A DNA stretch of 64,000 nt from Planctomycetota bacterium (GTDB lineage Bacteria > Planctomycetota > MHYJ01 > JACQXL01). Below are positions 10,171 to 20,988 of this stretch, piece by piece; position 1 is the first letter of the stretch; each line of letters starts with the position of its first letter. Location of the stretch: assembly GCA_016235865.1 (NCBI GenBank), contig JACRIK010000003.1:372001-436000 (forward strand), read 5' to 3'. The position numbers were made by a program, and so were the translations under genes. Under the pieces are notes generated by a model that was not told the origin of the DNA, searched no databases, and was given only the letters and a program-made list of their open reading frames with translations.

Positions 10171-11490
10171 ATGAAACAAATATACCTGGATAATCATTCG
10201 GGTACCAGAACGGATGAACGGGTGCTCAACGCGATGCTGCCGTATCTCAGGGATTCCTACGGCAATGCCCAGAGCATGCATTCGCTGGGCAACCAGTCAA
10301 AGGAAGCACTCGAGGTAGCGCGCCATCAGACGGCTGACCTAATCAATGCCAATGACGACGAGATCTATTTCACCTCCGGCGGGTCTGAATCCAATAACCT
10401 GGCCATCAAAGGCGTGGCCGAGGCGTATGCCTCCAAAGGCAAACATATCGTGGCTTCAGCCATTGAACATTTTTCGGTGCTATATTCAGCCAAACGGCTG
10501 GAGCAGGCCGGATTTCAGGTGACCTTACTGCCGGTTGATAAACACGGAACTATCTCGGTTGATGACCTGAAACAGGCTATCCGAAAGGACACGGTGTTGG
10601 TTTCCATCCAGCAGGCCAATCCGGAAATCGGGACTATCCAGCCCATAGAGGAATTGGCCCGCATCGCCAAGGCCAAAGGGGTACTGTTTCATACGGATGC
10701 CGTGGCAACCGTGGGCACGATTCCGGTGGACGTGAAAAAGCTGGGGGTTGATTTACTGACCCTGGCCGGCTCGCAGTTTTACGGCCCCAAAGGCGCGGCG
10801 GCTCTTTATATCAAAAAGGGCGTCCGGGTGATTCCCCAGATTGACGGCGGCATCCAGGAAAACGGTCGTCGGGCCGGCACGGAAAACGTCCCGTCTATCG
10901 TCGGCCTGGGCAAGGCGTCTGAAATCGCCAAGGCCGAGATGGTCGATAATAACCGGAAACTTATTACCCTGCGGGACAGGTTGATTTCCGCCCTTTCCCC
11001 AATGGAATCGGGGAATGGTCGGGAGCATCCCGACCCGTACGGGCAGGAAGCGCACCGGGAGACACTGCCCGGCAAGATGGATTATATTTATCTCAACGGG
11101 CATCCGGTTAATCGCCTGCCTAATAATATCAATTTCTCGGTGGAGTTTATCGAGGGCGAGGCCATGCTGCTCTTCCTGGATGGCGCGGGGATTTATATTT
11201 CCAGCGGCTCGTCCTGCGCCTCCAAGGCGCTCAAGATGTCACACGTGCTGTCCGCCCTAAAGGTGGATTCGGCCGTGGCCCAGGGCTCGGTCCTAATGAC
11301 CCTGTCCAAATATAACAGCACTGAAGACGTTGATTATATCCTGGCGGAATTTCCGCCTATAATAAAGAAGTTGCGCGATATGTCGCCGCTCTATGCCCAC
11401 TTTAAGAAAACCGGCCAGCGCCAGGCCGCCGGCCCGGGCACTGATTACGCCCACGCGCATGAACATGACCATGACACCTGTGAGACATAA
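10171..11490 (+). CDS. IscS/NifS-like protein lacking the PLP lysine and the substrate arginine, with His-rich tail
   Basis: A 439-aa class V aminotransferase-fold protein of the IscS type. Aligned with E. coli IscS from memory, spacing is exact: His100 (AIEH) = His104, Asp176 (HTDA) = Asp180, Cys349 (SSGSSC) = catalytic Cys328. The PLP Schiff-base lysine is replaced by Gln202 (AGSQFYGPKG where the family has S-x-H-K), the PLP-contacting Gln183 is Ala179, and the substrate Arg of the GS-I-R-F-S motif is Leu375. GRRAGTEN is kept. It therefore should not work as an ordinary cysteine desulfurase; a persulfide carrier or scaffold role is plausible. Archaeoglobus IscS is a remembered case of a lost PLP lysine. 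A palindromic repeat adds about 25 in-frame residues (272-296). The tail HAHEHDHDTCET looks metal-binding. DsrE2-like and TusA genes follow directly. Confidence 0.9.
   Translation: MKQIYLDNHSGTRTDERVLNAMLPYLRDSYGNAQSMHSLGNQSKEALEVARHQTADLINANDDEIYFTSGGSESNNLAIKGVAEAYASKGKHIVASAIEHFSVLYSAKRLEQAGFQVTLLPVDKHGTISVDDLKQAIRKDTVLVSIQQANPEIGTIQPIEELARIAKAKGVLFHTDAVATVGTIPVDVKKLGVDLLTLAGSQFYGPKGAAALYIKKGVRVIPQIDGGIQENGRRAGTENVPSIVGLGKASEIAKAEMVDNNRKLITLRDRLISALSPMESGNGREHPDPYGQEAHRETLPGKMDYIYLNGHPVNRLPNNINFSVEFIEGEAMLLFLDGAGIYISSGSSCASKALKMSHVLSALKVDSAVAQGSVLMTLSKYNSTEDVDYILAEFPPIIKKLRDMSPLYAHFKKTGQRQAAGPGTDYAHAHEHDHDTCET
11023..11055. repeat. Palindromic dispersed repeat inside the IscS-like gene
   Basis: 33 nt, 30 of them identical to the intergenic copy at 20956-20988 (core CCCGACCCGTACGGGC). 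It is preceded by the hairpin GGTCGGGA-GCA-TCCCGACC (11018-11036). The insertion keeps the reading frame. Confidence 0.8.
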
Positions 11491-11961
11491 ATGAAAGACA
11501 AAATGACCATCATTCTGTTCTCAGGCGAACTGGACAAGGCCATTGCGGCTTTTACACTGGCCACTACGGCCGCCTTAAGCGGCATGGAAGTGACTATCTT
11601 CTTCACCTTCTGGGGATTAAACGTCTTAAAAAAGACCACTTACACCGTCACCGGCTCGCAGAATATTCTCCAGAAGATGTTCAACCTGATGAGTCCGGCC
11701 ACACTGCCTATCAGCAAACTTAATATGTTCGGTCTCGGGCCCTGGATGATGCGCCGGCTGATGAGAAAGTCAAAAATGGCCTCATTAGAAGATATGATGA
11801 AACTGGCCCGGGAACTAAAAATAAAATATATTGCCTGCACCACCAGTTGCGGCGTCCTGGGATTAGGCCCGGAGCATCTGGTGGGCGAGGTGGATGAATT
11901 TGCCGGCGCAGCCACCTATCTGGCCGAGGCCCGGGAATCAAATATTAATCTATTTATTTAG
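11491..11961 (+). CDS. DsrE2-like (DsrE/DsrF/DsrH family) sulfur-carrier protein
   Basis: A 156-aa protein starting immediately after the stop of the IscS-like gene, so translation is probably coupled. It begins MTIILFSGELDKAIAAFTLATTAALSG, the DsrE-fold Rossmann-like first strand and helix, continues with EVTIFFTFWGLNVL, and has KYIACTTSCGVLGL in the second half. The two Cys of that motif are the likely persulfide-carrying positions of the DsrE2 (DrsE_2) subgroup. The middle hydrophobic/Met-rich region (FNLMSPATLPISKLNMFGLG) is typical for this subgroup. Its place between an IscS-like protein and TusA suggests intracellular sulfane-sulfur relay. No Dsr, Hdr or Sox enzymes are in view, so the acceptor is unknown. 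Confidence 0.85.
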   Translation: MKDKMTIILFSGELDKAIAAFTLATTAALSGMEVTIFFTFWGLNVLKKTTYTVTGSQNILQKMFNLMSPATLPISKLNMFGLGPWMMRRLMRKSKMASLEDMMKLARELKIKYIACTTSCGVLGLGPEHLVGEVDEFAGAATYLAEARESNINLFI

Positions 11962-12005
11962 TGACAAGTTTCACAAACTATGCTTAAATAAACGGGAATG
12001 TAAAT

Positions 12006-12233
12006 ATGCACCTGGATAAGACACTGGATTGCATCGGGCTGTTTTGTCCGATGCCCATAGCCAAGACCAAGCAGGAACTGGACAAAATGAATCCGGGCCA
12101 GACGCTGGAAATCCTGGCTGATGACCCGGGCTTTGAGAAAGATTTACCGGCCTGGTGCCGGATGACAGGGGAAAAGCTTGTGGCATTAGAAAAGGAGGGG
12201 AATATTTTTAAGGGGTATGTAACAAAAAAGTAG
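12006..12233 (+). CDS. tusA: TusA/SirA-family sulfur carrier
   Basis: A 75-aa protein with the full TusA signature: LDCIGLFCPMPIAKTKQELDK, whose CPMP cysteine carries the persulfide, followed by MNPGQTLEILADDPGFEKDLPAWCRMTGEKLV. A second Cys (AWCRMTG) is at the position common in this family. TusA relays sulfur from a desulfurase to acceptors in tRNA thiolation, Moco synthesis or dissimilatory sulfur pathways. Here it follows DsrE2 by 44 nt and precedes the acetyl-CoA synthetase by 15 nt. The symbol is given at family level; which acceptor it serves cannot be read from the sequence. Confidence 0.9.
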   Translation: MHLDKTLDCIGLFCPMPIAKTKQELDKMNPGQTLEILADDPGFEKDLPAWCRMTGEKLVALEKEGNIFKGYVTKK

Positions 12234-12248: not shown

Positions 12249-14567
12249 ATGTTGTTCGCGCTAATGGGTAAGTATGACCCTTTGAAAATAACGGAAATCC
12301 ATGCGAAGGAGAACGAGGTCTTTGATAACCCCCCAATGGGTTTAAAAGTGCTCGGCCGTTATTCCATGGTAGGACGCCGCGGCGGATTCATAGACATTGT
12401 CGAAGCCGAAAACGCTGACCAGTTGGCGGCTATAACTTTGAGGTTCGTAGGTCTGGTGGAGTTTGAGATTGTGCCGTTGATAGACACGATCGGCGGCCGG
12501 GCCCGCAAGCTTATCTCAGAATTCCACGGCGAAATCGCCCCGATGCACGGGCCGATGCCCGAATTAGAACTAATCTCGGCGGCCGAGGCGCCGGCCATTA
12601 GTTCGGTAATGCAGGAGAAACGAAAATTCAACCCGCCCAAAGAGGTTTCCGAAAAGGCATATATCAAGAACCTCAAGCAATACAAGGAGCTCTATAAGCA
12701 GTCCATTGACGACCCGGAGACATTCTGGTCCGAGCGCGCCTCGGAACTGCACTGGTTTAAGAAATGGAATAAAGTCCGGGACAGCAACTTCGCCAAGGCC
12801 CAGATAAAATGGTTCACCGGCGGTAAGACCAACGTATCCTACAACTGCCTGGACCGGCATATGGAAACCAGCCGCAAGAACAAGACCGCCATCATCTGGG
12901 AAGGCGAAAACGGCGAAACCAGGAACTACAGTTACCAGCAGTTATTCCACGAGACCTGCAGGTTTGCCAACGTCCTGAAAAGAATGGGCGTGAAAAAGGG
13001 CGACCGGGTTACTATCTATATGCCGATGATACCGGAACTAACCATTGCCATGCTGGCCTGCGCCAGAATCGGCGCCATCCACAGCGTGGTCTTCGGCGGT
13101 TTTAGCGCCGAATCCTTAATCGACCGCATCAATGACTGCGGCTCAAAGTATATCCTCACCTCGGACGGCGGTTTTCGCGGCGGCAAGACCATCGCTATTA
13201 AAGCCAATGCGGACAAGGCCATGGAAAAAACCCCGACCGTGGAAAAAGTTATCGTGGTCAAGCATGCCAACGTTACGGTCGATATGCGCCCGCAACGGGA
13301 TTTGTGGTGGCATGAATTGATGGCGGATAAAACTATCACGGAATGCTGCCCGGCCGAAGAGATGGATTCGGAAGACCCGCTTTTCATCCTCTACACCTCC
13401 GGCTCGACCGGCAAGCCCAAGGGCGTGATGCACACCACCGGCGGTTATATGGTTTATACCTATCTGACCTTCAAATGGATATTCGACTGCCACGATGATG
13501 ATATCTTCTGGTGCACGGCCGACATCGGCTGGGTGACCGGGCACAGTTACATCGTTTACGGTCCGCTGGCCGCCGGCGCCACCGAAGTGATGTTTGAAGG
13601 CATCCCAACCTACCCGCAGCCGGACCGGTTCTGGGAAGTGGTGGATAAGCACAAGGTAAATATATTCTATACGGCCCCGACCGCCATCCGCGCCCTGATG
13701 AGCTTCGGCGAGGAGTGGGTCAAGAAGCATAGCCTGTCGTCCTTGAGAATCCTGGGCAGCGTAGGCGAGCCGATTAATCCCGAGGCCTGGATATGGTATT
13801 ACAAAAACGTGGGCCGGGAACGTTGCCCGATAGTTGATACCTGGTGGCAGACTGAGACCGGCGGCATCCTGATTACCCCGCTTCCGGGCGCGATTCCGAC
13901 CAAGCCCGGTTCTGCCTCGATGCCGTTCTTCGGCGTGGTGCCTGAGATATTTAATACCGAAGGCAAACCGGTAAATCCTGGCGACGGCGGATACCTGGTC
14001 ATCAAACAGGATTGGCCCGGAATGATGAGGGGCGTCTATGGCGACCAGAAACGGTTCTTTGATACCTATTTCACTCATTTCCCCGGCGTCTATTTCACCG
14101 GCGACGGCGCCCGGGTCGACGAAGAAGGATTCTACTGGCTGATGGGCCGGGTGGATGACGTGATTAATGTCTCCGGACACCGCATCGGCACCGCCGAGGT
14201 GGAAAGCGCGCTGGTCGCCCATCCCAAGGTGGCCGAGTCAGCCGTGGTCGGATTCCCGCATAACATTAAGGGCCAGGGCATCTATGCCTATGTCTTCCTT
14301 AAAGGCGGCATCACCGGCACCAAGGATACCAAGAAAGAATTATCTGACCACATTAACAAGTTAATCGGTCCGATTGCCAAACCGGACGTAATCCAGTTTG
14401 TGGCCGGACTACCCAAAACCAGGAGCGGTAAGATTATGAGGCGCATCCTGCGCAAGGTGGCCGAGGGCGATACCAGCAATCTGGGCGATATCACCACACT
14501 GGCCGACCCGAGCGTGGTAGAACAGATAGTTATCGGCGCTAAACAGGAAACACGGGCGCAAAAGTAG
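12249..14567 (+). CDS. acs: Acetyl-CoA synthetase (AMP-forming) with N-terminal DUF3303 domain
   Basis: A 772-aa protein. Residues 1-about 95 are a DUF3303-type ferredoxin-like domain ([13 protein letters not shown]..., [37 protein letters not shown]). A linker leads to a complete acetyl-CoA synthetase from about residue 140. Key sites: phosphate loop [11 protein letters not shown] at 382-392, [11 protein letters not shown] with the acetate-pocket Trp, [30 protein letters not shown], and the C-terminal RSGKIMRR with the catalytic and acetylatable Lys728. It activates acetate to acetyl-CoA via acetyl-AMP, or with reversible use may work outward. Ordinary Acs is about 650 aa, so the N-terminal fusion explains the extra length. 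A ribosome site (AGAAAGGAAAG) precedes the ATG. The next gene, an OFA-family transporter, may supply or export a small monocarboxylate. Confidence 0.93.
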
Positions 14568-20955: not shown

Positions 20956-20988
20956 GAGCACCCCGACCCGTACGGGCGGGGAGCGCAC
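20956..20988. repeat. Palindromic dispersed repeat, intergenic copy
   Basis: 30 of 33 bases match the copy inside the IscS-like gene (11023-11055). The core CCCGACCCGTACGGGC is intact. Confidence 0.8.

Follow-up and report, generated by a model that had tools for sequence, protein, structure and literature searches.

An IscS homologue lacking the PLP lysine, encoded with DsrE2-like and TusA proteins, represents a conserved bacterial clade genetically linked to IscU

The window analysed here, a stretch of 64,000 nucleotides from a Planctomycetota genome, carries a compact set of three sulfur-transfer genes built around a homologue of the cysteine desulfurase IscS. The features of this locus, all on the forward strand, are as follows.

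10171..11490, + strand: lysine-less IscS homologue, 439 aa (ORF, alignment, Pfam Aminotran_5)
10774..10776, + strand: codon of Gln202, at the Schiff-base lysine column (alignment)
10997..11063 (limits approximate), + strand: in-frame insert of ~22 codons, in the window copy only (gap in alignment A1)
11215..11217, + strand: codon of Cys349, the catalytic-loop cysteine (alignment)
11224..11226, + strand: codon of Lys352, in the clade-specific Cys-x-x-Lys/Arg (column counts)
11431..11487, + strand: His-rich C-terminal tail GPGTDYAHAHEHDHDTCET (similar tails in relatives)
11491..11961, + strand: DsrE2-like protein, 156 aa, with Cys116-x3-Cys120 (PF13686, 159 bits)
12006..12233, + strand: TusA, 75 aa, with a CPMP motif (PF01206, 90.8 bits)

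The DsrE2 reading frame starts at the base following the end of the IscS-like frame (11490 to 11491, zero gap), and all three proteins exceed the gathering scores of their Pfam families (Aminotran_5, DrsE_2 and TusA). With 250.7 bits to Aminotran_5, the window IscS has the fold and domain family of desulfurases; its top NCBIfam matches are NifS and IscS, and it scores below every NCBIfam desulfurase cut-off (486 vs 530.75 bits for NifS, 374 vs 643 and 399 vs 548 bits for the IscS models). The DsrE2-like protein reaches 159.1 bits against a DrsE_2 gathering score of 25 and falls short of the NCBIfam SulfCarrDsrE2 cut-off (82.1 vs 210 bits), whereas TusA attains 90.8 bits against a gathering score of 28.6 and presents the Cys-Pro-x-Pro motif as CPMP. 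Among the copies of these two proteins encoded in lysine-less IscS operons, Cys14 of TusA is found in 34/34, and Cys116 and Cys120 of DsrE2 in 14/14 and 13/14, respectively. An acetate-CoA ligase gene (12249-14567), whose product has an additional N-terminal stretch matching DUF3303, starts 15 bases past tusA and may lie on the same transcript.

The AF2 model of the window IscS (pLDDT 85.6) has human NFS1 and Archaeoglobus fulgidus IscS as its closest structures. The insert of ~22 residues, at approximately positions 276-298, is absent from the other 23 proteins in alignment A1 and corresponds to a low-confidence loop (278-301) in the model. Its DNA carries CCCGACCCGTACGGGCAGG, with near copies at four genome sites, one of them at 20962-20984 of the window; the insert may be one copy of a small palindromic repeat, dispersed in the genome, that entered a coding gene without breaking its frame, and its RNA fold is mildly unusual (z -2.1). 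The His-rich tail, disordered in the model, follows a pattern (AGPGTDYxHxHxH) common to most Elusimicrobiota-type members of the clade described below and absent in the anammox-type lysine-less members.

The first-pass annotation, prepared from the letters of this stretch, had described an IscS that keeps its catalytic Cys loop, His and Asp at IscS spacing while losing three residues of the PLP and substrate pocket. An alignment of the window IscS with E. coli IscS, A. fulgidus IscS and ~165 further homologues confirms this observation as a whole. The Schiff-base lysine is replaced by Gln202, the PLP-binding Gln by Ala179 and the substrate Arg by Leu375; His100, Asn150, Asp176 and Cys349 are retained; and the spacing matches that of IscS (76 from His to Asp, 26 from Asp to the Lys column, 26 from Cys to the Arg column). 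The E. coli equivalent of the substrate Arg, given earlier as R356, becomes R354 when counted by spacing from Cys328. A further replacement that had gone unnoticed is that of His by Ser201 (E. coli H205), beside the lysine column. The alignment places no substitute lysine at the Schiff-base column or adjacent to it in the window IscS, and Lys352, considered for that role, is located on the Cys loop instead.

The same pattern extends over a comparison set of 68 distinct lysine-less and 100 canonical proteins. At the Schiff-base column the former have Gln (38), Val (23) or, in the rest, Ala, Pro, Met, Ser or Thr, and never Lys; the substrate Arg column holds Leu, Val, Ile or Thr and never Arg; and the PLP-binding Gln is missing in all but one. 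His, Asp and Cys are nevertheless present in 68/68, the catalytic-loop Cys being equally universal in the canonical set (100/100), where Lys and Arg are both found in 100/100. The catalytic set of a desulfurase has therefore been lost, as proposed in the first-pass annotation, with Lys, Gln and substrate Arg replaced across the clade. A positive charge three residues past the catalytic Cys, provided by Lys352 in the window and also found in A. fulgidus IscS, is clade-wide (Lys in 51 and Arg in 17 of the 68), while Lys occupies this position in 2/100 canonical proteins.

Lysine-less proteins form a single clade even with the pocket columns masked (SH-aLRT 99 in a quick tree, 100/99 in a careful one), and they are under strong purifying selection: the median dN/dS is 0.076 for 51 lysine-less pairs at 80-95% identity, compared with 0.099 for 39 canonical pairs. 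The gene is retained even in sub-megabase genomes. A sequencing error is excluded because 68 distinct proteins vary at the lysine column and none of them has Lys, and these homologues together with the dN/dS of 0.076 likewise rule out a pseudogene. The view that the protein has changed its role, rather than decayed, is hence upheld by a conserved clade, purifying selection and a conserved operon.

A scan of named genomes recovered 18 more lysine-less proteins (53-68% identity), mostly from Endomicrobia, with one each from an Elusimicrobia MAG, a WOR-3 MAG and a MAG labelled Proteobacteria. We then sampled 199 genomes from Elusimicrobiota, the phylum of an Endomicrobia genome (G297), and obtained strong matches in 84 of them, mostly at 55-72% identity; a few matches at 46-48% are canonical copies, leaving the lysine-less gene in ~80/199 genomes. 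Forty Elusimicrobiota regions were retrieved and the residues checked directly in most. From a sample of 294 Planctomycetota genomes the 30 best loci were read, and among these one family (f50), which we infer to be anammox-like and in which several genomes are near complete (3-4.4 Mb), has lysine-less copies with SANQ replacing SAHK. When 11 proteins encoded around the ribosomal operon are concatenated, the resulting tree groups the window genome with a Planctomycetota genome (100/99), whereas the lysine-less IscS that it encodes falls within the Elusimicrobiota sequences in both the quick and the careful trees. Three sampled genomes of its own family contain no lysine-less copy (two, G211 and G289, have canonical proteins, and G161 yields no match), and the window gene was likely acquired laterally.

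To characterize the genetic context of the clade we compared loci with at least 3 kb of downstream sequence (59 lysine-less, 57 canonical), considering same-strand genes within 4 kb and identifying representatives of the neighbour families by Pfam. The most frequent partner is IscU, present in 54/59 lysine-less versus 26/57 canonical loci. TusA or DsrE2 accompanies 31/59 lysine-less loci (TusA 31, DsrE2 13), each being found in 0/57 canonical loci; the associated p-value of 4.6e-12 treats as independent loci that are in fact related by descent, and such p-values overstate the linkage. In two phyla TusA comes after IscU, and at four Elusimicrobiota loci (L198, L200, L203, L205) the order is lysine-less IscS, IscU, DsrE2 and TusA. 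The window trio corresponds to this operon minus iscU. The earlier depiction of a sulfur-transfer trio built around IscS was right about DsrE2 and TusA and missed the main partner, which could not be seen from the window because iscU lies on another contig (C29 of the window genome, G000). Many Endomicrobia loci have IscU nearby and no close TusA or DsrE2. An adjoining tusA and DsrE2-group gene pair is also known from sulfur oxidizers (PMC4175335), and the clade DsrE2 shares with DsrE2A its two conserved Cys; in those organisms, however, the pair is linked to Dsr or heterodisulfide-reductase-like genes, and here to lysine-less IscS and IscU.

The window genome encodes one IscU, which retains the cluster ligands C37, D39, C63, H105 and C106 (E. 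coli numbering) together with the IscS-contact residue K103. It is 82% identical to one IscU encoded behind a lysine-less IscS, and its nearest rows in a weakly resolved tree are of that kind or from G294. In E. coli the IscS tail region and the K103 region of IscU both matter (PMC2854127), and the IscS tail motif LRxxSPLY is retained. Fourteen of the searched genomes have a single strong IscU (>100 bits; G000, G294, G295, G297, G300, G301, G327, G332, G346, G350, G387, G421, G431 and G447). In 11 of these, the coordinates place it immediately after the lysine-less IscS; G000, G294 and G447 are the exceptions. On contig C10 of G447, unlike in its relatives, the sole IscU is ~10 kb from the lysine-less IscS and on the opposite strand. 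Searches for SufB/D gave no match in any of 14 member genomes, while positive controls matched in 14/14. With SufB/D not found and a single IscU mostly behind the lysine-less IscS, these organisms seem to make Fe-S clusters mainly through IscU, whose genetic partner is the lysine-less IscS. A stand-alone IscS/IscU pair has been described as the minimal MIS system, MisS-MisU (PMC12442378), and the tested member genomes resemble it in having such a pair and no detected SUF scaffold proteins. MisS, however, has been presented as a cysteine desulfurase (PMC11559095), whereas the clade IscS is without the lysine.

The closest known counterpart is archaeal, as the first-pass annotation pointed out: in our alignment, A. 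fulgidus IscS-2, which matched its PDB chain over the whole length, replaces the Gln, Lys and Arg by Ala, Asp and Leu, respectively. It thus shares with the clade the three replacements, the Cys-x-x-Lys and the retained His, Asp and Cys (PDB 4eb5, 4hvk, 4r5f), a combination that the window IscS displays in full. According to published work, the A. fulgidus protein has no desulfurase activity and ligates the IscU cluster through a Cys, and M. acetivorans IscS1 is also without the lysine (PMC7585200). The window model shows 45-47% identity to its fold matches, and joining the clade with A. fulgidus IscS yields a slightly higher likelihood, although the AU test (p 0.585) neither rejects nor demonstrates a single origin. 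Pairing with IscU, established in the literature for A. fulgidus IscS-2 (PMC7585200), is reproduced by gene order in 54/59 clade loci, the IscU of the window genome being on another contig. The bacterial clade differs in having mainly Gln or Val at the lysine column, a His-rich tail, and operons that hold TusA/DsrE2 or anaerobic oxygen-defence genes. A lysine-less IscS paired with IscU is therefore already known from archaea. In the literature searched we found no report of the bacterial clade, of its TusA/DsrE2 operon or of its association with the sole IscU of genomes in which SufB/D was not detected, although such absence is not proof. The archaeal precedent also bears on the earlier proposal of a PLP-free protein, which stands unproven: every clade member keeps His100 and Asp176, the residues at the PLP ring, in line with PLP retention, and loss of the lysine does not imply loss of PLP, since a figure legend describes the A. 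fulgidus (IscS-IscU)2 structure as containing PLP (PMC9769115).

Taken together, these data indicate that the lysine-less IscS probably takes part in Fe-S cluster assembly while not itself releasing sulfur from cysteine. The specific model we favor, by a modest measure, is that of a non-catalytic platform for IscU in which Cys349 retains a role and sulfur comes from TusA/DsrE2. On the A. fulgidus precedent, the protein would serve as a docking platform for the scaffold IscU (in the window genome, presumably the only one, encoded on contig C29), and at the IscU assembly site Cys349 would relay persulfide, transiently ligate the nascent [2Fe-2S] cluster, or do both, a proposal under which the Cys349 loop would be retained for that continued action. 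As gene order suggests, TusA, and DsrE2 where present, might carry persulfide to Cys349 or straight to IscU, after being loaded in trans by canonical IscS or from inorganic or low-molecular persulfides. In the window itself, the location of iscU outside the operon speaks against the platform reading, as do, more generally, the many Endomicrobia loci in which TusA/DsrE2 are missing from the vicinity. A simpler possibility, which we deem unlikely, is a pure A. fulgidus-type role: the protein would contribute no more than a Cys ligand and shape to IscU, the sulfur would be supplied as free sulfide in anoxic, sulfidic habitats, and TusA/DsrE2 would serve other acceptors. The identical triple substitution in A. 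fulgidus IscS, the published Cys-ligand function (PMC7585200) and the many Endomicrobia loci missing TusA/DsrE2 agree with this account, and the preferential association of TusA or DsrE2 with lysine-less loci (31/59 vs 0/57), in two phyla, argues against it.

Under the platform model, sulfur for TusA/DsrE2 might still originate from a canonical enzyme, and canonical-like IscS copies are widespread. The window genome encodes one on contig C2, just upstream of an apparent thioredoxin reductase gene, and a second, canonical-like IscS was found in 20/20 genomes searched and in 14/18 small genomes, the other four of which (0.4-0.9 Mb) may be incomplete. Replacement of the canonical desulfurase by the lysine-less protein is therefore unsupported, and the latter supplements, rather than replaces, cysteine desulfuration. 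This coexistence could also mean that the two proteins act as a heterodimer or as partners, the lysine-less member taking persulfide from the PLP site of canonical IscS and adding an IscU-specific arm. The adjacency of both IscS genes at three loci (L012, L231 and L228, the last with IscU between them) fits such an arrangement, but nearly everywhere else the two genes are widely separated and 44/101 canonical copies have their own IscU neighbour, so that we consider it quite improbable.

Besides IscU and sulfur carriers, the 59 lysine-less loci frequently contain genes for flavodiiron protein (28), rubredoxin (27), desulfoferrodoxin (25) and rubrerythrin (22). One or more of these accompany 37/59 lysine-less loci against 1/57 canonical loci, the single canonical case involving flavodiiron protein, and a Fur/PerR family gene lies upstream in 10/59. 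Combined with the lack of detected SufB/D in 14 genomes, this composition evokes a module for Fe-S assembly or repair under oxygen or iron stress, in which the His-rich tail and iron proteins would supply iron. Such neighbours are nonetheless absent from the window and from anammox-type loci, the sole IscU of a genome is unlikely to be limited to stress repair, and the idea addresses the timing of the module more than its working; we accordingly assign it a very low probability. Nor do oxygen-defence genes count towards the system in the window: they are not adjacent to it, and the strongest flavodiiron match of the genome lies on a different contig.

Returning to the platform model, assembly of Fe-S clusters on IscU is normally thought to begin with a PLP-dependent cysteine desulfurase. 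Across a whole bacterial clade, including the anammox-like family, IscU is instead paired with an IscS devoid of the catalytic set where SufB/D was not found. A broader extrapolation, which we put forward tentatively and would not be surprised to see fail, is that anaerobes without detectable SUF would depend on a sole IscU and a desulfuration-incapable IscS fed by TusA/DsrE2, in effect the E. coli Tus relay run in reverse (TusA to IscS to IscU). If true, Fe-S assembly would no longer depend on PLP chemistry at the site where the clusters form. Independently of this extrapolation, the question of the sulfur source in A. fulgidus becomes testable in bacteria, with TusA and DsrE2 as candidates. 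The opposite direction, in which IscS hands sulfur to DsrE2 and TusA, had been proposed in the first-pass annotation and appears less likely: unable to form persulfide from cysteine, the lysine-less IscS more likely receives sulfur and presents it to IscU. That initial interpretation thus holds for the change of role, the catalytic loss, the DsrE2/TusA link and the Archaeoglobus precedent, and needs revision as to PLP, sulfur direction and the omitted IscU.

In E. coli, IscS, TusA and IscU are interacting partners (PMC2854127). In that relay the persulfide is formed by IscS and passed on to TusA, whereas in the clade the flow would be reversed because its IscS is without the catalytic set. The loss of the E. 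coli TusA contact residues Trp45 and Arg237 counts against delivery by TusA/DsrE2, but part of the contact surface persists: Arg55 is retained and positions 49 and 52 are acidic or similar.
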